DNA from: Clostridia bacterium
GTDB lineage: Bacteria > Bacillota > Clostridia > Christensenellales > Borkfalkiaceae
Reading direction: 5' to 3'
Assembly: GCA_014804995.1 (NCBI GenBank)
Contig: JAAUYS010000031.1
Location: 1-41,002, forward strand
DNA: 41,002 nt
Within the stretch, counting starts at the first letter, position 1. Every line of letters begins with the position of its first letter. The notes below the pieces were generated by a model, which searched no databases, had not been told where the DNA came from, and worked only from the letters and a program-made list of their open reading frames with translations. Position numbers and translations under genes: made by a program. Below are positions 18,183-30,464 of the stretch, one piece after another.

Positions 18183-18470
18183 ATGAATTTTCTATTTATG
18201 AGGAATATTGAAAACAACAATAACGAGTCTGAACTGACTCATGCCCCTCTCTCATACGATGAACGTGTACAGCTTCTTCAGGAAGGGAAGATAGGTCATC
18301 TCCGCTTTGTGCTTGAAGGTGATGACGCACAGGAGTTCATTGCATGGTGCGATAGCCATGGTGTAGAGCCTTGCGATGATGCAGCTGAGTTCTATCTGGA
18401 ACAAACAGAGATTGATGCTATGGATATGCAGGTAATCGACAACGAGGAGTATGGCATTTGGAATGAATGA
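18183..18470 (+). CDS. Small acidic hypothetical protein upstream of ardC
   Basis: A 95-residue very acidic protein; the core GKIGHLRFVLEGDDAQEFIA followed by WCDSHGVEPCDDAAEFYLEQ looks like a compact alpha/beta fold. The start may be ATG 18183 or ATG 18198 (MRNIENNNNES), the latter giving 90 residues. Its 3' end overlaps the ArdC gene by 8 to 20 bp depending on that gene's start, so the two are translationally coupled. Acidic small proteins beside ArdC suggest a DNA-mimic or partner role, but that is speculation; the family is unknown to me. Confidence 0.65.
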   Translation: MNFLFMRNIENNNNESELTHAPLSYDERVQLLQEGKIGHLRFVLEGDDAQEFIAWCDSHGVEPCDDAAEFYLEQTEIDAMDMQVIDNEEYGIWNE

Positions 18471-19788
18471 GAATCCTCGTCCGAAGCAGACGGTGGGCGC
18501 GGGTCAGGCTGCGCTCGACCGTTTCGCTCAGATGATGATTGACCGCATGGAGCAGATGAAAGCCTCCGACTGGAAGAAAGGCTGGATCGAGGGTCAGGGC
18601 GGTGGACTCCCCCAAAATATAGGGGGACGTAACTATTCCGGCTCCAACTCTTTCTTTCTCCAGATGCACACCGCCATGAGCGGTTATCAGATTCCTGTGT
18701 ATCTCACCTTTAATCAGGCTCACAATCTTAAGGCCCATGTCCTTAAAGGTGAGAAATCATTTCCGGTGGTCTATTGGGATATGATGATTAAGGATAAGAA
18801 CGGTAAAAAGGTTCAGGAACCTGACTACCGCGCCATGAGCAAGGAGGAACGGAAAGAGCTGACAGTGATCCCATTTATCAAGGCTTTCCCTGTATATAAT
18901 ATCGACCAGACCAATCTGAGGGAGGTTCAGCCTGAACGTGTCCAGAAACTACTCGATAAGTTCAAGGTGCCGGAGTTTTCCGACACCGTAGGGATGTATC
19001 GTCACCCGGCTCTCGATGAGATGATTCGTCAACAGTCGTGGGTCTGTCCGATCAAGGCAGATACTCCGCAAGTAGGTGCATATTATTCTCCGGCACATGA
19101 TATGGTGGTATTACCGATGAAAGCCCAGTTCAACCAGGGAGGAAGTCCGGATGAGATTTACAGGAGCGGTCAGGAGTTCTACTCCACAATGCTTCACGAA
19201 ATGGCTCATTCAACTATGACTCCTGAACGTCTCAACCGCGAGATGGGCGGACGTTTCGGTGATAAGAAGTATGCCAAGGAGGAACTTGTGGCTGAGCTTA
19301 CAGCAGCGATGGTTTCCCATTCTATGGGTTTCGACAAGAAGATTACTGATAACTCGGCGGCTTATCTCGATTCTTGGATTCAGACCTTAAAGGAGGAGCC
19401 AAAGTTCATCACTTCTGTAATGACTGACGTGAATAAGGCTTCCGAGATGATTCTTGACCGTGTGGATGCACAGCAACTTAACCTTGGTGCCACTCCATAC
19501 CTTATCAAGAATGACCCTTTCAGACCCCTTGACCCCAATGAGGAAATTCCATTCAAAAATGCGGCTATCGTCAAGACCAGAGATGGAGGATATGCTCTCC
19601 GTGCGACATTCGATGGTCAGGAGACCGGGTTCAAGCCGATAGAGAAATCAACTGCCAAGACCTATTTCCAACTTACCGATATGAAGGACAAGGAGGCATT
19701 TTTGGCAATGACTGTGAAGAAGCATTTTGAACCGGAACTGGAGAAGATGTCGCAGTCGAATGATAAGAAAAAATCTCTTATACTTTAA
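18451..19788 (+). CDS. ardC: ArdC-like antirestriction protein with zincin domain
   Basis: A 445-residue protein. The N-terminal ArdC domain (about residues 15-140) includes ASDWKKGWIEGQGGGLPQNI, GGRNYSGSNSFFLQMH, and PVYLTFNQAHNLKAHVLKGE then KSFPVVYW, typical of ssDNA-binding antirestriction ArdC. A zincin-like metallopeptidase domain follows, with HEMAHS (HExxH, about residues 249-253) and a downstream EELVAELTAAMVSHSMG helix. A C-terminal extension (about 365-445) resembles the DUF3945-like modules of the gene at 16571. It would protect incoming single-stranded DNA from host restriction. ATG 18463 is an alternative start, 12 bp downstream in frame. Confidence 0.9.
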   Translation: MAFGMNENPRPKQTVGAGQAALDRFAQMMIDRMEQMKASDWKKGWIEGQGGGLPQNIGGRNYSGSNSFFLQMHTAMSGYQIPVYLTFNQAHNLKAHVLKGEKSFPVVYWDMMIKDKNGKKVQEPDYRAMSKEERKELTVIPFIKAFPVYNIDQTNLREVQPERVQKLLDKFKVPEFSDTVGMYRHPALDEMIRQQSWVCPIKADTPQVGAYYSPAHDMVVLPMKAQFNQGGSPDEIYRSGQEFYSTMLHEMAHSTMTPERLNREMGGRFGDKKYAKEELVAELTAAMVSHSMGFDKKITDNSAAYLDSWIQTLKEEPKFITSVMTDVNKASEMILDRVDAQQLNLGATPYLIKNDPFRPLDPNEEIPFKNAAIVKTRDGGYALRATFDGQETGFKPIEKSTAKTYFQLTDMKDKEAFLAMTVKKHFEPELEKMSQSNDKKKSLIL

Positions 19789-19805: not shown

Positions 19806-20987
19806 ATGAGCTATAAAGTTGATTTCAAACAACTAAAATCAAGAGTAGGCATAGAGGATGTTGCCTATTCTCTCGGATATAGAGTTGATAGGAAAGCCGG
19901 AGTGGGTAGGTATTTTGAGATGGTACTCGGAGATAGTCACGGCAAATCTGATACTATAGTTATACGTAATGTGAATGATAAATCTTCCCAGACTTTCTTT
20001 CGACGTAATGGTGAGAAAGGTGATGTGGTAACTCTTATCAAGGAGAACCTTAATGCCTTCTTTGTTGACGGGAAAGATGACTGGCAGAAGGTTGCTAAAG
20101 TTTTGGCTCGTTTTGCAAATATGCCTGAATCTGAATATAAATCCAAAGAGGAATATGTCGGGAAAGGACACCAACCACAGGAGTTTGACCCGAAGAGATA
20201 CAAGATAAAGCAGATCGATATGGATTCACTTCCTGCTATCTTCTATCAACGGGGACTATCTAAGGATACGGTCAAAGCCTTCTCTCCTTTCATTTCTCTG
20301 GTACATGATACCAAAAATCAAAACTTCGATGGGTACAATGTAGGCTTCCCATATACTAACTCACAAACAATCGGTATTGTGGGATATGAATTGCGAGGTG
20401 TTGGAGGATATAAGTCAAAGGCTGCCGGCACCAACTCTTCTTCTGCCTGTTGGGTAGCTGACCTTTCAAAAGGGAATACACAGGGGGTTACGGCTATCTA
20501 TTTCTGCGAGTCTGCTTTTGACGCTATGGCTCTTTATCAGATGCGGAACAAGACACTGGATAGAGAGATTGCCTTTGTATCTATCGGAGGGACTTTCTCC
20601 GATGGTCAGGTTAAGGATGTACTGAAACGATTCCCAAATGCAAAGGCTTTCGATTGCTTTGACAATGACCTTCCGGGGCGTACTAACGGATTACGCCTTA
20701 TGGCTATCGCTGAGAATATACCTCTAAAAATCAATAAGACCGATTCTGAGATCTCAGTAGAGATGAAGGGTAAATCTTTCACAGTTGACCCTACAAGACC
20801 AATCTATCCACAGGTTTCAAAGGAGGTGTCAGTTCATCGCAAGATGGGACATCTCCAGCCACCGAGAGATTTCAAAGACTGGAACGACTGTCTATTGAAT
20901 AAGTCCATGGAAGTCTCTTTCTCTCCCTCTAAAACAGAACGCGACCAGAATCTTGCTGAACAAAGAAAATCATCATTAAAATTATAA
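19806..20987 (+). CDS. TOPRIM-domain primase-like protein (DUF3991)
   Basis: A 393-residue protein. The N-terminus (FKQLKSRVGIEDVAYSLGYR and a GxxGDVVTLIKE segment) matches the DUF3991 and primase zinc-domain-replacement region found in Bacteroidetes elements. A TOPRIM domain covers about 225-305: the metal-binding Glu is in FCESAFDAMALYQM (about 233-246) and the Asp pair in DCFDNDLPGR (about 283-292). It probably primes the complementary strand or processes DNA during transfer, like TraP/DnaG-type proteins. The C-terminus PRDFKDWNDCL is also typical. It is in the same operon as ArdC. Confidence 0.88.
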   Translation: MSYKVDFKQLKSRVGIEDVAYSLGYRVDRKAGVGRYFEMVLGDSHGKSDTIVIRNVNDKSSQTFFRRNGEKGDVVTLIKENLNAFFVDGKDDWQKVAKVLARFANMPESEYKSKEEYVGKGHQPQEFDPKRYKIKQIDMDSLPAIFYQRGLSKDTVKAFSPFISLVHDTKNQNFDGYNVGFPYTNSQTIGIVGYELRGVGGYKSKAAGTNSSSACWVADLSKGNTQGVTAIYFCESAFDAMALYQMRNKTLDREIAFVSIGGTFSDGQVKDVLKRFPNAKAFDCFDNDLPGRTNGLRLMAIAENIPLKINKTDSEISVEMKGKSFTVDPTRPIYPQVSKEVSVHRKMGHLQPPRDFKDWNDCLLNKSMEVSFSPSKTERDQNLAEQRKSSLKL

Positions 20988-23873: not shown

Positions 23874-24701
23874 TTACAATGCCAACCTCATTCCTTCTAC
23901 ATTACATGGCCATATTGACATACTTCTAGCTGTAACTCTACAATGTTCTTCGCCATTATGCCAGTCACCACCTCGGCTTGTGTGGAAAGAACCTCCTAAG
24001 GGTTCTGAATCATAGTGATTTCTCCAGCCTTCTGAAACTCTTTCCTGTACATTCCCTGACATATCATACAATCCAAGTTCGTTTGGAGATTTTAAGCCTC
24101 GATCCTGCCCCTCAAACTCAACGTAGGCTGTATTTACTTTGTACCACCCTACTTCATCAAGATTATCACTTCCGGCAAATGTATATCCGTGAGAATACTT
24201 ACCACCCTTAGCGGCATACTCCCATTCCGCCTCGTAGGGCAATCTGAAAGATAGTCCAGTAATGGAATTCAGTTTATCAATGAAATCAAGACCTTCCTCA
24301 AAACTAATAGTATGAATTGGCTTATTGGGACCTTTGTAGACATCTGCATTCTTCCATGATTCAGGATCTTCACCCATAACCGCCCACCATTCAAGTTGAC
24401 TGAGTTCATATTTGGAAAGATAAAAGTCCTTCACCTTTTCGGTGTGCATCGGAGTTTCATCTCCATAAAGTTCCAATCCGTCATAGACTCCATCAGAACC
24501 CATAGTAAACTCTCCTCCTTCAATCTTTACCATATTACTCACCAACTCTCTAAGGATGGTTTTAACCGTATCTGTAGTTTCAGGTTGCCAATGAATCTCC
24601 AGACCGTTAATCGTTTCTGTTTCAAGTTGAATATCATTGGCTCGGACCATAAAAGATAATCCGAATAAAGCTAAGAATAAAATGAATAGATTTAGTTTCA
24701 T
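23874..24701 (-). CDS. Secreted SUMF1/formylglycine-generating-enzyme-like protein
   Basis: A 275-residue protein with a signal peptide (residues 1-21, MVRA). The SUMF1/FGE-sulfatase domain fills the rest: MVKIEGGEFTMGSDG (about 57-71), FYLSKYELSQLEWWAVMGED, FRLPYEAEWEYAAKGG (about 153-168), LGLYDMSGNVQERVSEGW (about 208-225), RGGDWHNGEEHCRVTAR and a GMRLAL end. The usual GNVWEW box reads GNVQER here. Family members either activate sulfatases by forming formylglycine or act as nonheme-iron or ligand-binding proteins; no sulfatase gene is nearby. It is monocistronic, with its own promoter, and appears to be cargo. Confidence 0.86.
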   Translation of the reverse strand: MKLNLFILFLALFGLSFMVRANDIQLETETINGLEIHWQPETTDTVKTILRELVSNMVKIEGGEFTMGSDGVYDGLELYGDETPMHTEKVKDFYLSKYELSQLEWWAVMGEDPESWKNADVYKGPNKPIHTISFEEGLDFIDKLNSITGLSFRLPYEAEWEYAAKGGKYSHGYTFAGSDNLDEVGWYKVNTAYVEFEGQDRGLKSPNELGLYDMSGNVQERVSEGWRNHYDSEPLGGSFHTSRGGDWHNGEEHCRVTARSMSIWPCNVEGMRLAL

Positions 24702-24820: not shown

Positions 24821-25068
24821 TGCAAAGTTACTGCATCCGGGAGAATCGGCAAGTATCGCTTCGCTTTCCATATTCTTCACTCCCGTGAGCCTCCATATTT
24901 TTTCGTTCCTCAAAAATAGGTATCCCGGTAGTTCCGAATATTTCACACTTGCCTTACTTCTCCCTATTGTCCGCAGTGTGGATTGCATGTAAAACGGCGA
25001 TCCCTGCCGGAGAAGCTCTAACGAGCTAAACAAAAGGGAAAAGAATTGAACATTAAACTTTTGGAACT
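24821..25068 (+). ncRNA. Structured leader, copy 1 (ahead of PcfK/PcfJ cluster)
   Basis: This gene-free stretch is similar in sequence and base pairing to 30064-30320. Paired arms seen here: ACTGC/GCAGT (24830-24834 with 24973-24977), GGGAGAA/TTCTCCC (24839-24845 with 24958-24964), GGCAAGT/ACTTGCC (24848-24854 with 24947-24953) and TATTTTT/AAAAATA within 24893-24920. Near the 3' end are a CGGC/GCCG hairpin, an AGCTC-N4-GAGCT hairpin and the box CAAAAGGGAAAAGAATTG, then the gene starts at 25069. Several pairs differ from copy 2 by compensating changes. The first bases also contain a minus-strand TTG-N19-TAACTTTG promoter match. It could be a cis-regulatory RNA leader or a divergent control region. 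Confidence 0.6.
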
Positions 25069-25824: not shown

Positions 25825-26319
25825 ATGAACGAGATTAAGGGTTCAACCCAAACTACACCCACCGCGACTAAGCAGGAGGGAACAAAGAAACTGCCGAGAG
25901 GTACCGAGCGTTTCGGAGTAGTTATCAAGGCTTATCTTGATAAGAGAGCCGAAGAAGATGAACTGTTCAAGGCTAAGTATGAAGCCGTGAACCGACCGAT
26001 TGAGGATATTGTGGCTTATATCATATCGGAGGTTCAGAGGTCGGGAGTGTGTGGCTGGACTGATGATGAAGTGTTCTCGTTTGCCGTCCATGCAGCCGAG
26101 GAAGCCGAGTTGAAGATACCCGATATGAAACATTGTCAAGTTGTGGTGAACCACCATATAGAACTGACGGAGGAAGAGAAAGCGGAGCAGAGAGCGTTGG
26201 CGTTGAAACGATTTCAGGAGGAAGAGTTGGCTAAGGTCAGAGCGCGTAATGCCAAACCAAAAGCAGTCAAACCACAAACACAATCAACCCCCATTCCTTC
26301 ACTTTTTGATGATTTCTGA
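25825..26319 (+). CDS. pcfK: PcfK-like protein
   Basis: A 164-residue protein matching the PcfK family: FGVVIKAYLDKRAEEDELFK (about 31-50), EDIVAYIISEVQRSGVCGWT then DDEVFSFAVHAAEE (about 62-95), and CQVVVNHHIELTEEEKAEQ (about 105-123). The C-terminus, PIPSLFDDF, resembles a sliding-clamp-binding tail. PcfK is named from a conjugative plasmid of Enterococcus and accompanies PcfJ, though its biochemical role is unknown. It ends 2 bp before pcfJ. It starts with the same AAGGAACTATG context seen elsewhere in these cassettes. Confidence 0.88.
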   Translation: MNEIKGSTQTTPTATKQEGTKKLPRGTERFGVVIKAYLDKRAEEDELFKAKYEAVNRPIEDIVAYIISEVQRSGVCGWTDDEVFSFAVHAAEEAELKIPDMKHCQVVVNHHIELTEEEKAEQRALALKRFQEEELAKVRARNAKPKAVKPQTQSTPIPSLFDDF

Positions 26320-26321
26320 TT

Positions 26322-27596
26322 ATGAAGCCACGCACTCAATTTGAAAAGTTGGTCATGATTTCAAATACGAAACTTGCCGACATCACTCCCAAAGCCTATG
26401 ATTGGGCGGTTAGGACACAGATACACCACATCGCTTTCCGCACATCCGGCTCCAAATGCACTTGCGGAGACTGCGGGCACAAATTCAACTATAAGGGAAA
26501 AGGGAAAAGTATCAAATGCCCCCATTGTGGTAGAGTGGTTCATATAATTGACACCAATAAACGCATCTTTTTCCCTTCCGCCTATTTCAATACGACAGAG
26601 GTAGTGGATGAAATGCAGGTTTTAAGGACATACCGATTGAACGCCACATACAGGAAAGGGTTAGTAAGTGATTTTGAAGTCATAGAGGTATGCCGTCTAT
26701 GGCTCAATTCCAAAGGTCAAACCGCAGTCACTTCCCGAAAGAGGTCACTGGGTTATTATCTTGACAATTTCAACTGGAGTTCGGAGATTGAACTTAGAAG
26801 TCTGTCAGAGGTCTATATCACACTTTCCGACTGCAACACATATCATCGTTATTCCGCTATTCCGGAATTAAGAAGAAATGGACTCAAAGGGTCTATTCCT
26901 TATTGCAATCCATTCCTGCTGATGAAGTATCTTCTTACTGATTCAAGGATTGAAACTTTAATGAAGGGAGGTCATATTAAGGCAGTGAGATTCTTCACTG
27001 ACAATCATCACCGTCTCAAAAATTGTTGGGAGTCGCTTAAAGTGGCTTACCGAAAAGGATATGAGCCTTCCGACTATGCCCTATGGTGCGATACAATCTC
27101 TATTCTTGATAAGTTGGGAAAAGACATCCGGAGTCCGAAGTATATCTGTCCCGACAATTTGAAGGAAGCTCACGACCATTGGAGCAGTAAGTATCTTAGA
27201 GCCGAGAAAATCTTAAAAGACCGGGAGCAGATGATTAGGGCAAAAAAAGACGAGAAGAATTTTATCACTGCCAAGAGCCGTTACTTCAATATTGTAATCA
27301 AGGATTCCGATATTACCATTTCCGTACTTAACTCAATAGAAGAATATCGAGCCGAGGGGGAAGCAATGCACCATTGTGTATTCTCCGCATCCTACTATAA
27401 TATCCCCGATTCAGTCATACTATCTGCACGCGATAAAGACGGCAGGAGGATTGAGACCATTGAGTTCTCACTTACGCAGGGGAAGGTAGTACAGAGCCGG
27501 GGAGTCTGCAATAAGAACACTGAATTTCACGACCGCATCGTTAGTCTTGTGAATAATAACGCATTCCTTTTTGAGAAAGCAAAAGAGAGTGCGTAG
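26322..27596 (+). CDS. pcfJ: PcfJ-like protein
   Basis: A 424-residue protein. An N-terminal zinc ribbon (CTCGDCGHKFNYKGKGKSIK then CPHCGRVVH, about residues 46-74) precedes the PcfJ-like body. Near the C-terminus EEYRAEGEAMHHCVFSASYY and VILSARDKDGRRIETIEFSL (about 343-388) form the most diagnostic PcfJ block, with the conserved MHHC. The function of PcfJ is not established; the ribbon suggests nucleic-acid binding. It is the last gene of the cassette, followed by a terminator at 27622. Confidence 0.9.
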   Translation: MKPRTQFEKLVMISNTKLADITPKAYDWAVRTQIHHIAFRTSGSKCTCGDCGHKFNYKGKGKSIKCPHCGRVVHIIDTNKRIFFPSAYFNTTEVVDEMQVLRTYRLNATYRKGLVSDFEVIEVCRLWLNSKGQTAVTSRKRSLGYYLDNFNWSSEIELRSLSEVYITLSDCNTYHRYSAIPELRRNGLKGSIPYCNPFLLMKYLLTDSRIETLMKGGHIKAVRFFTDNHHRLKNCWESLKVAYRKGYEPSDYALWCDTISILDKLGKDIRSPKYICPDNLKEAHDHWSSKYLRAEKILKDREQMIRAKKDEKNFITAKSRYFNIVIKDSDITISVLNSIEEYRAEGEAMHHCVFSASYYNIPDSVILSARDKDGRRIETIEFSLTQGKVVQSRGVCNKNTEFHDRIVSLVNNNAFLFEKAKESA

Positions 27597-27765: not shown

Positions 27766-28515
27766 ATGTCAACAAAAATCATAACCATAGCCAATCATAA
27801 AGGCGGTGTCGGGAAAACTACTTCGACCGCTTCGATCGGTTCGGCACTCGCCATCCGTGGAAAGAAAGTTCTGCTGATCGACCTTGACGCACAGCAGAAT
27901 CTTTCCTTTACCCTCACTCAGAATGAAGACCCGGAGCGGAGCGTTTATGACGCTCTTGTGAAGGATGAGCCGTTGCCGATTGTCAAGGTAAGGGAGAATC
28001 TTGACCTCGTTCCGGCTTCTCTGGAACTTGCGAGAGCGGAGATTGATATGGCTACCAAGATTGCGCGTGAGGGAATACTGAAATCTCTTCTGGAGGAACA
28101 TCAAGCCAATTACGATTATATCCTGATTGATTGCCCTCCCTCTTTGGGAATAGTCACGACAAATGCGCTTGTGGCATCTGATGAATTGTTTATACCCCTT
28201 ACAGCCGAGGCTCTGCCTCTGAAGGGTCTGACAATGCTCGATGATGTGGTTAACGAGGTCAGGAAAAGAGTAAACCCGAATCTCAAATTGGGTGGTGTGT
28301 TCTTCACCCGGTTCAATAACCGAAAACTCAATAAGGAGGTGGTCTCGATGATAGAGAGTCGCTATGCCGAAAAGGTTTTCAAGACGAAGATTCGTGAGAA
28401 TATAGCGTTGGCTGAAATGCCATTGTCTGGACAATCAATCTTTGAGTATGACCCGAAAAGTAACGGAGCAGCCGACTATATGGCACTTGCAGACGAGATA
28501 CTTACGAGAAATTAA
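27766..28515 (+). CDS. parA: ParA-family partition ATPase
   Basis: A 249-residue ParA/Soj ATPase. The deviant Walker A KGGVGKTTSTAS is at about residues 9-20, Walker A' LLIDLDAQQNLS at about 36-47, and Walker B YILIDCPPSLG at about 118-128. There is no N-terminal HTH, so it is a small (type Ib or Soj-like) ParA; autoregulation would rely on another protein, likely the small ribbon-helix-helix protein downstream. It ensures inheritance of the element in its circular or plasmid form. Confidence 0.93.
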   Translation: MSTKIITIANHKGGVGKTTSTASIGSALAIRGKKVLLIDLDAQQNLSFTLTQNEDPERSVYDALVKDEPLPIVKVRENLDLVPASLELARAEIDMATKIAREGILKSLLEEHQANYDYILIDCPPSLGIVTTNALVASDELFIPLTAEALPLKGLTMLDDVVNEVRKRVNPNLKLGGVFFTRFNNRKLNKEVVSMIESRYAEKVFKTKIRENIALAEMPLSGQSIFEYDPKSNGAADYMALADEILTRN

Positions 28516-28595: not shown

Positions 28596-28970
28596 ATGGG
28601 AAAGAAAAACTTGGCTTCTCTGATGAACGGCATTATGGGAGAGCCTAATCAGGAAGTGATAAAATCCGATAATCAGTTGATTGAACCGTCTGCAGAGCCG
28701 GAATCTTTGGAAGTAACAGAGGAGATGAAGGAGAATCTGGAGACTAAACGATACAGAAATGTTGGGAGACCGAAGAAAGGAACAACCACTTCAAAGAAAG
28801 AGGAAACTCGTGCTACTTTTATTGTTGATCCGGAATTAATCCGTAAGCTAAAATACATCTCACTTGTTGAGAGCAGCCTTCTGAAAGATATTATTTCTGA
28901 AGCACTGACCGGTTACATCAATGAGTGGGAAGAGGAGAATGGAAAGATTAAACTACCGAAGAAGAAATGA
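28596..28970 (+). CDS. Ribbon-helix-helix-like partner of ParA
   Basis: A 124-residue protein. The N-terminal 50 residues are acidic and probably unstructured. Residues 50-70 are basic (YRNVGRPKKGTTTSKKEE), then RATFIVDPELIRKLKYISLV and SSLLKDIISEALTGYINEWE form a strand-helix-helix pattern typical of RHH DNA-binding domains. Bacteroidetes elements often place such a protein after parA, where it would act as ParB/ParG-like centromere-binding factor and repressor. It overlaps the next gene by 4 bp (ATGA). Confidence 0.8.
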   Translation: MGKKNLASLMNGIMGEPNQEVIKSDNQLIEPSAEPESLEVTEEMKENLETKRYRNVGRPKKGTTTSKKEETRATFIVDPELIRKLKYISLVESSLLKDIISEALTGYINEWEEENGKIKLPKKK

Positions 28971-29341
28971 CTTTCGATAACTTAAGAGCAGCAGAAGATA
29001 AAGCTGCAAATGCGATGCTCTCTTTTGTGAAATCAAATAGACGTGCCCCATCCGATGAGGAAAAGAAAACAGTACTCAATGCTCTGAGACTGGCAGGAAG
29101 TCCCAAATACTGGAGGATTGAAGCACTACAGATACTCAGATACTGCATAACCAGTACCTCTCGCCCCGAATTAAAGAAAATTGAGGTAGCAATAATAAGT
29201 ATTGTCTATGCCACTGAGGAGTGGCGATTATTTGGAAGACTAATTGCTCCGCAGGTCGGCAGTAATGGTGACGAACCATATAAATGTGGCGCCACCATTT
29301 TCTGCCACTTGGAAGATAAAGCTGGTGTGATTGCTCCGTGA
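28967..29341 (+). CDS. Hypothetical protein of the parA operon; C-terminus lies in repeat A
   Basis: A 124-residue protein starting within the previous stop codon (ATGA). The first 85 residues (MTFDNLRAAEDKAANAMLSF, LNALRLAGSPKYWRIEALQI) form a helical domain. The last 38 residues, from about 29225 to the stop at 29339-29341, are encoded by the repeat that recurs without coding capacity at 29571. The original C-terminus may therefore have been replaced or extended by the repeat. Family unknown. Confidence 0.65.
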   Translation: MTFDNLRAAEDKAANAMLSFVKSNRRAPSDEEKKTVLNALRLAGSPKYWRIEALQILRYCITSTSRPELKKIEVAIISIVYATEEWRLFGRLIAPQVGSNGDEPYKCGATIFCHLEDKAGVIAP

Positions 29342-29485
29342 TTCTCTCCGAGCAATCTTTCACCGATATATTTAGACTATAAGCCGTTCCGAATATTGTC
29401 AGTAACGCCGAAAAGACCAAGGTTCGCAAGCTTCACTTTGTTCTTTTCCGCGTCGCTGACTTATGAAGATTTAATCTGAATCGAA
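29225..29485 (+). repeat. Direct repeat A, about 260 bp
   Basis: This copy runs from CGATTATTTGGAAGAC to TTTAATCTGAATCGAA and closely matches 29571-29834, with substitutions and a few small indels, many placed in hairpin stems. Its first part encodes the end of the gene at 28967. It includes the second, third and fourth hairpins of module A. Confidence 0.88.
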
Positions 29486-29570
29486 TACACGTCTGAATCG
29501 GTAACTAATCTGAAACGAATATTTGCCGGCACTCCCCAGTCATAGGTTGACACTTATGACTGAGGTGTGC

Positions 29571-29834
29571 CGATTGTTTGGAAGACTAACTACTCCGTAG
29601 GTCGGCAGCAATGGTGACGAACCATATAAATGTGGCGCCACCATTTCACTGCCATTTGGGAGAAAAAATAGGTGAAGATTGCTCCGTGATTCTCACCGAG
29701 CAATACTTCACCGATTTATACAGGAAAGTAAGCCGATTCCGAATTATCAGCAACGCCGAAAAGAACAAGGTTCGCTGAGCTTCACTTTGTTCTTTTCCGC
29801 GTCCCTGACTTACGGTGATTTAATCTGAATCGAA
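29571..29834 (+). repeat. Direct repeat B, about 264 bp
   Basis: Second copy of the direct repeat. The frame used by the gene at 28967 is closed here by a TAG shortly after the start, so this copy is non-coding. In the third hairpin the flanks are more fully paired (GGTGAAG with CTTCACC) than in copy A, suggesting that the structure, not the protein, is conserved. Confidence 0.88.
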
Positions 29835-30063
29835 GACTTTTCCCGGTAATTCACCCAATGCATCTCATAGAGTGAATTGCCGGATTATCATAAGTCGTCT
29901 AATCGCAGTACGACTTCAGTAATGATACCGAAACATCCCGAAGTTCCGTTACACTTCACTTCGGCTTCTTTCCGTATCATCACCATTCTTTTGAATACCC
30001 CGATATCCTTACTTTCTAATTCTCTTGTGAGAGATTGAGTCTCGACAGGGAGCTGTTTTTCTG

Positions 30064-30320
30064 TGCAAAGTTACTGCGGACAGGGGAAACTGCAAGTGAT
30101 CGCTACGCTTGCGGGCGAGGACTGCAACCGTGAGCCTCCCATTTTTATCGTGCCTCAAAAAATGGGTATCCCGGTTTTGTCCGCGCCTGCACACTTGCCT
30201 TTTTCTCCCTTTAGTCCGCAGTTTTTGACTTGCACGAAAAACGGCTTGCCCTGCCGAAGAAGCTCAACTGAGCTTCACAAAAGGGAAAAGAATTGGATTC
30301 AACCCTCTAAATTCAGAACT
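30064..30320 (+). ncRNA. Structured leader, copy 2 (ahead of small-gene cluster)
   Basis: Counterpart of 24821-25068. Pairings: ACTGCGGAC/GTCCGCAGT (30073-30081 with 30214-30222), GCAAGTG/CACTTGC (30092-30098 with 30192-30198), CCCATTTTT/AAAAATGGG (30138-30146 with 30158-30166), then CGGC/GCCG and AAGCTC-N4-GAGCTT hairpins and the same CAAAAGGGAAAAGAATTG box before the gene at 30321. CCGTGAGCCTCC and GGTATCCCGGT are identical in both copies. On the minus strand TTG-N19-TAACTTTG (30095-30066) fits a promoter in both copies. An open frame crosses the region, but the covarying pairing argues for a leader. Confidence 0.6.
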
Positions 30321-30464
30321 ATGGAACAAAAGATATTCACTTATAAGGGGAAGGGCTTCCTATCCACTATCAAGTTTTTGGCTCAGATACTATTAGTTAT
30401 GGGCGTATTCGGTATGCTCTACCTCTTACTTATTATCGGGTTTGCACTCGGCTTCACAATGTGA
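30321..30464 (+). CDS. Small membrane protein, 47 aa
   Basis: A 47-residue protein, MEQKIFTYKGKGFLSTIKFL followed by one long hydrophobic helix (about residues 18-45). It begins at ATG 30321, directly after leader copy 2, with the AACTATG start context also seen at 25069. An in-frame extension upstream to 30063 would run through the leader and is less likely. Function unknown. Confidence 0.62.
   Translation: MEQKIFTYKGKGFLSTIKFLAQILLVMGVFGMLYLLLIIGFALGFTM

Follow-up and report, generated by a model that had tools for sequence, protein, structure and literature searches.

Behind the ParA operon of a Bacteroidota-type conjugative element, about 770 bp were found without a convincing gene of their own, which raises the question of what kind of element this DNA represents. 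The stretch analyzed here (the window, a contig of 41,002 bases) carries genes for TraG, TraM, DUF4138 (TraN-like), a coupling protein, and ArdC-like and primase-like proteins, followed by PcfK, PcfJ, ParA and a small protein (Table 1). A PDB match of this small protein to 9kkd was not significant (E 0.97). From the sequence alone, the 770 bp had been described as a three-module array of ordered hairpins, with four guesses at a function: an oriT, a replication origin, a centromere for ParA or a family of structured small RNAs. The element was shown to be real and conserved in structure, and it is most likely an RNA; an undescribed element is thus upheld, while the first three guesses are poorly supported.

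Positions 29246-29992 were shown to contain three head-to-tail copies of a module that spans about 300 nt and forms three hairpins. Modules W1 and W2 are near copies, whereas W3 is divergent. A repeat search of the window showed 92% identity over 88 nt between 29213-29300 and 29559-29646 (offset 346), and repeats of 43, 33, and 60 nt further along the array had a spacing of 348-349. The plus strand was used to build models R1 and R2, and the minus strand to build R3, a model of H3' plus H2' from 26 modules. W1 scored 140 bits with R3 (29316-29468) and 145 bits with R1 (29255-29379), and W2 scored 129 bits (29663-29817) and 124 bits (29601-29727), respectively, both modules being among the sequences that build R1 and R3. 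W3, which was left out of the R3 seed, was nevertheless recovered by R3 at 29836-29992 on the minus strand (59 bits, E 6e-13), and was also matched by R2, in whose seed it is included (49.5 bits at 29913-29989). The repeats, the recovery of W3 and the folding of the region bear out the ordered three-module array, in which the loop words and outer arms noticed earlier are indeed shared. In addition to what had been described, an extra hairpin (H4) and three short direct repeats lie between the first two copies; H4 was also present in L023, L025, L026, L027, and L068. A 124-aa ORF that ends within W1 gave tblastn matches to module regions in L023, L025, L026, and L027. On the plus strand, two terminator-like sites were found in the region, compared to 1.4 expected from shuffles.

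Table 1. Coordinates of the array, its parts and neighboring features (window positions unless a locus is named)
Feature	Position	Strand	Remarks and basis
W1	29246-29468	-	H3' 29393-29465, H2' ~29325-29373, H1' ~29256-29308
W2	29595-29817	-	H3' 29741-29814, H2' ~29673-29720, H1' ~29602-29655; repeat of W1
W3	29836-29992	-	Same hairpin order as W1 and W2; divergent
Inter-module hairpin H4	29527-29572	-	Between W1 and W2; fold and eight aligned copies
Three short direct repeats (CTGAATCGAATAC-like)	29476-29522	.	17-bp period; between H4 and H3'; reading and repeat search
Terminal hairpin	29209-29226	.	Far end of array; terminator-like scan, plus strand
ORF, 124 aa	28967-29341	+	Last ~40 residues read from W1; translation
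Bacteroidota-type promoter motif	30066-30095	-	-7 box TAACTTTG (30066-30073), TTG (30093-30095) 19 nt upstream; would read into array
Promoter block	30033-30326	.	Second copy 24821-25062; two copies in contig C99; blastn of window against L006
ArdC-like gene	18451-19788		
Primase-like gene	19806-20987		
PcfK	25825-26319	+	Pfam; convergent with array
PcfJ	26322-27596	+	Pfam; convergent with array
ParA	27766-28515	+	Pfam; convergent with array
Small ribbon-helix-helix-like protein	28596-28970	+	Label by eye; convergent with array
c404 and DUF1643-like block	L006 8724-10491; L023 9877-11644; L143 5670-7434		c404 precedes

Folding of 29210-30000 (791 nt) gave -306 kcal/mol on the minus strand (z -13.3) and -293 on the plus strand (z -11.1), and on each strand 0 of 20 shuffles were as good. 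Alignment A6, which comprises 26 modules and was built without structure, had 91.1% of cells paired compared to 79.8% in shuffles, 108 double-change cells compared to 35.5, double changes in 18 of 32 pairs compared to 13.3 and a covariation score of 0.414 compared to 0.207 (slid controls 0.04-0.15), the structure having been picked on the same sequences. When the partners were slid by one to three columns, paired cells fell to 32-50%. The number of pair types, one of five measures of covariation, was no higher than in shuffles (42 compared to 39.9; 112/500). In a model-fitted alignment of 54 distinct rows, one of them an opposite-strand match, 92.8% of cells were paired compared to 75.7% in shuffles, with 301 double-change cells compared to 92, and 23 of the 32 pairs showed double changes. 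The H1' core was 85.6% paired, with 37 double-change cells compared to 13.3 in shuffles and a covariation score of 0.302 compared to 0.131; for this core, two of the five measures were at shuffle level, namely pairs with double changes (4 compared to 3.6; 266/500) and pair types (295/500). A G.G mismatch between CUC and GUG in H2' and the internal loop and mini-hairpin at the top of H3' were nearly invariant. Compensatory changes in a common secondary structure, the mark of a structured RNA, are present. Covariance testing, which had been proposed as a check, thus showed that the stem arms vary with pairing retained across relatives in A6, in the 54-row alignment and in the H1' core.

The minus strand is quite likely the working strand. 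Energies from alifold (minus/plus) were -9.3/-5.6 for H3, -10.8/-5.8 for H2, -12.6/-5.5 for H1 and -24.5/-20.4 for H4 (8 copies). At paired sites read on the minus strand, G.U exceeded A.C by 97 to 27 in the model-fitted alignment and by 40 to 14 in 25 rows from loci outside the seed, a bias toward which single-stranded DNA of the minus strand would likewise tend, as G.T over A.C. Single hairpins folded without alignment were more stable on the minus strand in 22 of 26 cases for H2, 16 of 24 for H3 (where loose motif extraction admitted some foreign segments), 13 of 21 for H1, and 4 of 8 for H4. A structure of H3 derived from the plus strand flips the ratio (G.U 34, A.C 9 for plus) because a few pairs without variation form G.U on just one of the strands. 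The order of the hairpins noticed earlier is kept, but it is likely to be read in the other direction, as H3'-H2'-H1' from 29992 down to ~29246.

A candidate promoter that fits the Bacteroidota promoter consensus was found on the same strand. In the window, its TAnnTTTG box and TTG sit outside the array at a distance of 73-76 nt; six further loci have a similar box at 72-269 nt on the minus strand, giving 7 of 13 loci in total. L068 has a box of different sequence, and no TAnnTTTG-type box was found in L023, L026, L070, L074, and L075 within the stretch scanned, nor in any of the 13 loci on the plus strand up to 420 nt upstream of the array. Over 41 modules, a box within 450 nt was in sense for 16 and in antisense for 8. 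TAnnTTTG alone is no commoner in the window than chance would give (27 boxes compared to 30 expected), and the weight therefore lies on the conservation of the motif. Judged by this motif, the module probably has its own promoter in this ICE. The motif is part of a block of about 240-290 bp that is present twice in the window, once before an FGE-sulfatase-like gene (23874-24701, minus strand) and once before the array, and both copies carry the TAACTTTG box on the minus strand.

The array had been placed downstream of parA, and this is the case in the window, in contig C99 and in G061 (L025), but in G935, G961, G892, and G873 it was found upstream of PcfK with unchanged orientation to the operon. 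In L026 only a remnant of the ParA operon has the array downstream of it. In G062 (L023) the neighbor is a PcfK fragment, and ParA was not found; in G063 (L027) the contig stops before the ParA position, its other flank matching that of the window. Behind the array, the window, L025, and L027 have no ORF in sense, only convergent ones. Elsewhere, 30 modules in 22 other loci were surveyed without a control, using mechanically called ORFs of at least 120 aa and leaving out four weaker or overlapping hits (L140, L152, L153), the L075 module and the ICE arrays. In this uncontrolled survey the nearest upstream ORF was in sense for 20 of 29 modules and the nearest downstream ORF convergent for 19 of 28, with both neighbors fitting a location at a 3' end for only 13 of 27. 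By eye, the neighbors include FMN reductases, dehydrogenases, and regulators of the AraC, HxlR, and MarR types, and many of the modules are in loci that look chromosomal by their neighbors.

Two rearrangements were observed close to modules. In L026 (7614-8339) and L025 (5540-5917), the protein beside the ParA remnant has its C-terminal half swapped; over its first 52 residues it shares 83% identity with the window's small protein, and in L026 SAP_new25-DUF6434 comes next. Also in L026 (8428-8536/9309-9421), nearly 900 bp are inserted into a module between H1 and H2, and the same split was found in L008 (385-495/1370-1556).

Modules were found to be present in related ICEs, so that the search suggested in the sequence-only reading turned out positive. 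The genome of the window contains a second related element with four modules on contig C99. A search of genome contigs with the hairpin-2 pattern led to JAAVFG010000014 (Bacteroidales MAG), CAMWXH010000002 (Porphyromonadaceae MAG), and JAIDPP010000379 (Muribaculaceae MAG); L009 (Cyanobium), one of the six loci from the pattern scan, was dropped, since blastn showed no similarity to the modules. In the family of JAIDPP010000379, probably Muribaculaceae, R3 matched 41 of 397 genomes at E<=0.01 and 34 at E<=1e-5, and 24 of these 34 had contributed no sequence to R3. Within the order (393 genomes), R3 matched only G061, the search center, and weakly G701 (E 0.007); both searches ran with stricter filters. 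With R2, the hairpin-3 model, matches were obtained in 14 of 297 genomes from the family, nine of which were retained after reading. Those in G1041, G889, and G923 were set aside as sharing the H3 loop core only, those in G924 and G1083 for want of module architecture, and an R1 match in G762 as having no R2 support. Hairpins that share only the H3 top-loop core (e.g., GAAGTTTCGCAAGCTGCACTTC) were seen in L073, L076, L079 (G1041), L078, and L081; they are REP-like, with eight matches in G1041.

In blastn searches the array had no match among plasmid and phage records, and among 61 genomes (that of the window and 60 relatives) it was found in the genome of the window only, as it was with R1 in 396 genomes of the order of that genome. 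This distribution fits a Bacteroidales element residing in, or misbinned into, a genome of another order. The genome of the window (G000) has a contamination of 6.45%; misbinning of the contig is possible, as is its recent transfer from another family. In viral contigs the H2 and H3 patterns had no matches, the single match to the H1 pattern was without module features on reading, and none of 38 matches to the RNA-sense H2 pattern was supported by R3 (best 17 bits, E 0.02).

No Rfam 15 family, STAXI being among those included in Rfam, matched the array in a scan of the whole window, in which the only match was to a group II intron (RF00029, 57.9 bits) at 19-115. Permissive Rfam scans of window 29000-30400 and of L068 9000-10700 gave three snoRNA/miRNA matches each, far below the cut-off. 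No description of the element was found in the literature searched, and it is called undescribed with respect to that literature and Rfam 15. The nearest idea among known systems is STAXI, followed by GOLLD and ROOL. STAXI occurs as two or three tandem copies near genes for DNA handling, antirestriction, and integration, and its authors leave open whether it acts as RNA or single-stranded DNA, with a preference for RNA (PMC2864571). Both STAXI and the module are structured, in tandem and near DNA-handling genes; however, STAXI is mainly a repeated pseudoknot, often with UUCG loops (PMC2864571), and the module, unlike STAXI, has three long hairpins in about 300 nt per copy and occurs in one Bacteroidota family. 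GOLLD and ROOL are large structured RNAs of phages and prophages that were found by covariation, are of unknown function and often lie near tRNAs in phages, many GOLLD members exceeding 800 nt and one ROOL having 659 nt (PMC12286853), whereas the module, of about 300 nt, is in tandem on ICEs and single elsewhere and has no match in Rfam 15. The rAID arrays of Bacteroidales immunity genes have conserved intergenic motifs, are defined by a tyrosine recombinase and are broadly distributed across Bacteroidales genera (PMC12247911). The modules of L070 and L074 resemble them in ending clusters of small genes, but the module is nearly absent from the 393 genomes of the order. The clusters (L070 1811-4115 and L074 4566-5084) look like orphan immunity genes, and three of their products start with MKLTDKRF-like words.

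Gene blocks were found between modules in several contexts. The gene c404, for which Pfam, NCBIfam, PADLOC, PHROGs, and PDB gave no match, and a DUF1643 gene lie between modules in all three contexts in which c404 was found, namely the ICE of C99, contig C2 of G062 and L143 of G1212, c404 being 87% (G062) and 76% (L143) identical to the C99 copy. A four-gene redox block (AraC-AKR-ADH-FMN reductase by eye) was located between modules in L145 and L141 (module matches of 36-58 bits), and in L156 it has a module on one side and what appears on reading to be a remnant of H1' on the other. L137, L138, L139, and L142 represent a second element type, in which cargo is bracketed by two modules, the cargo of L137 and L142 including a protein of 645/657 aa which we take to be a TetQ-like ribosomal protection protein. 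L148 has a single module between the outer flanks of L137 and L138, sharing 95.6-99.4% identity with L138 in these flanks; the left flank of L148 is also common to L142, and the outer flanks of L139 differ. These arrangements speak for an integron-like folded site of single-stranded DNA, at which blocks between modules in direct repeat would be excised or inserted by a recombinase acting in trans. The attC sites of integrons combine a conserved fold with changing stems, often lie at the 3' ends of genes and flank exchangeable genes in direct orientation, and the module is like them in keeping its structure on a variable sequence and perhaps also in place. However, with about 300 nt and three hairpins it is far longer, and the cargo of L137 lies on the opposite strand. 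In the few pairs compared, the breakpoint is variable: it falls between H3' and H2', behind H2', behind H1' or at a stop codon, as expected from homologous recombination between repeats of 300-700 bp. Furthermore, none of the PF00589 integrase matches listed for 10 genomes lies on the contig of a listed module at a distance of 5 kb or less, the nearest ones (G861 and G1038) being ~7.4 kb away; not every contig is long enough to cover 5 kb, and an integrase acting in trans is compatible with this result. Because the breakpoints are inconstant and no PF00589 match listed for the ten genomes was within 5 kb, homologous recombination between the repeats is the simplest cause of the block exchange, and an integron-like site is possible but rather doubtful. 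A broader form, in which modules would be folded attachment sites with a strand-specific fold for cassette exchange in Muribaculaceae, operons moving between ICE and chromosome through a recombinase in trans and the modules perhaps also acting as RNA, is considered unlikely.

Other roles on single-stranded or double-stranded DNA are less probable. A single-stranded promoter or conversion origin used on entry of the ICE into a recipient, like Frpo or sso, would agree with the strong folding on both strands and with the distance of some 8-11 kb between the array and the ArdC-like and primase-like genes. Conjugative elements are common in the order of the 393 genomes, in which only the search center and one weak match were found, and many modules are chromosomal-looking, beside redox and regulator genes by eye, which makes this role improbable. 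Neither is an oriT favored, since the only PF03432 relaxase match on a module-bearing contig of six genomes searched was ~43 kb from the array (G892 contig C11) and many modules are in chromosomal-looking loci. For a centromere-like array serving ParA and the adjacent small DNA-binding protein speak the 17-bp-period repeats between modules and the presence of ParA, 85-99% identical to that of the window, within a few kb in the window, C99, L025, L068, L069, L071, and L072. The association is not constant, since no ParA was found by tblastn in L023 (PcfK fragment only), L070, L074, and L075, or by eye among the ORFs of 20 further loci; the ParA operon can have modules on either side, and L026 has modules of the same kind despite its SAP-domain swap. 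Short sites on double-stranded DNA, moreover, need no conserved hairpin pairing, and a centromere is very improbable. Finally, the array could consist of decayed protein-coding repeats or of a neutral repeat with fortuitous hairpins, and single modules do have open frames of up to 105 codons, with one ORF of 238 aa running across two modules in L027. In 97 similar module pairs, which share modules and therefore count the same indels more than once, 320 of 328 indels were not multiples of three, so that no frame is kept. Together with compensatory changes far above those in shuffles, this is taken to refute coding or neutral repeats as the main explanation and leaves them exceedingly improbable.

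We therefore favor, with moderate confidence, the explanation that the array is a tandem, undescribed structured RNA module of mobile and accessory DNA, acting as a stand-alone RNA or as a 3' element, with repeats that also serve as exchange points; structured small RNAs had been one of the four original guesses and are the best supported of them. The RNA would be read from the minus strand as H3'-H2'-H1', with loops and internal loops that are conserved and stems that change freely. Transcription in this ICE would start at the TAACTTTGCA motif and proceed leftward, probably yielding a stand-alone RNA of ~850 nt that would run tail to tail into the ParA operon. At other loci, where the module often lies behind the 3' end of a gene, it may be a 3' UTR element or give rise to a 3'-derived RNA. 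The module could act as an RNA domain whose conserved loops bind a partner, tandem copies offering more sites, and the direct repeats would allow gene blocks to be swapped between modules, as a consequence or as a second role.

If the element is an RNA, an undescribed structured RNA is present in 34 to 41 of 397 sampled genomes of a gut-associated family and occurs on ICEs. If the modules also drive the exchange of blocks, which include an apparent ribosomal-protection resistance gene, they would reveal how gut Bacteroidales, a little-cultured group, shuffle their accessory operons.
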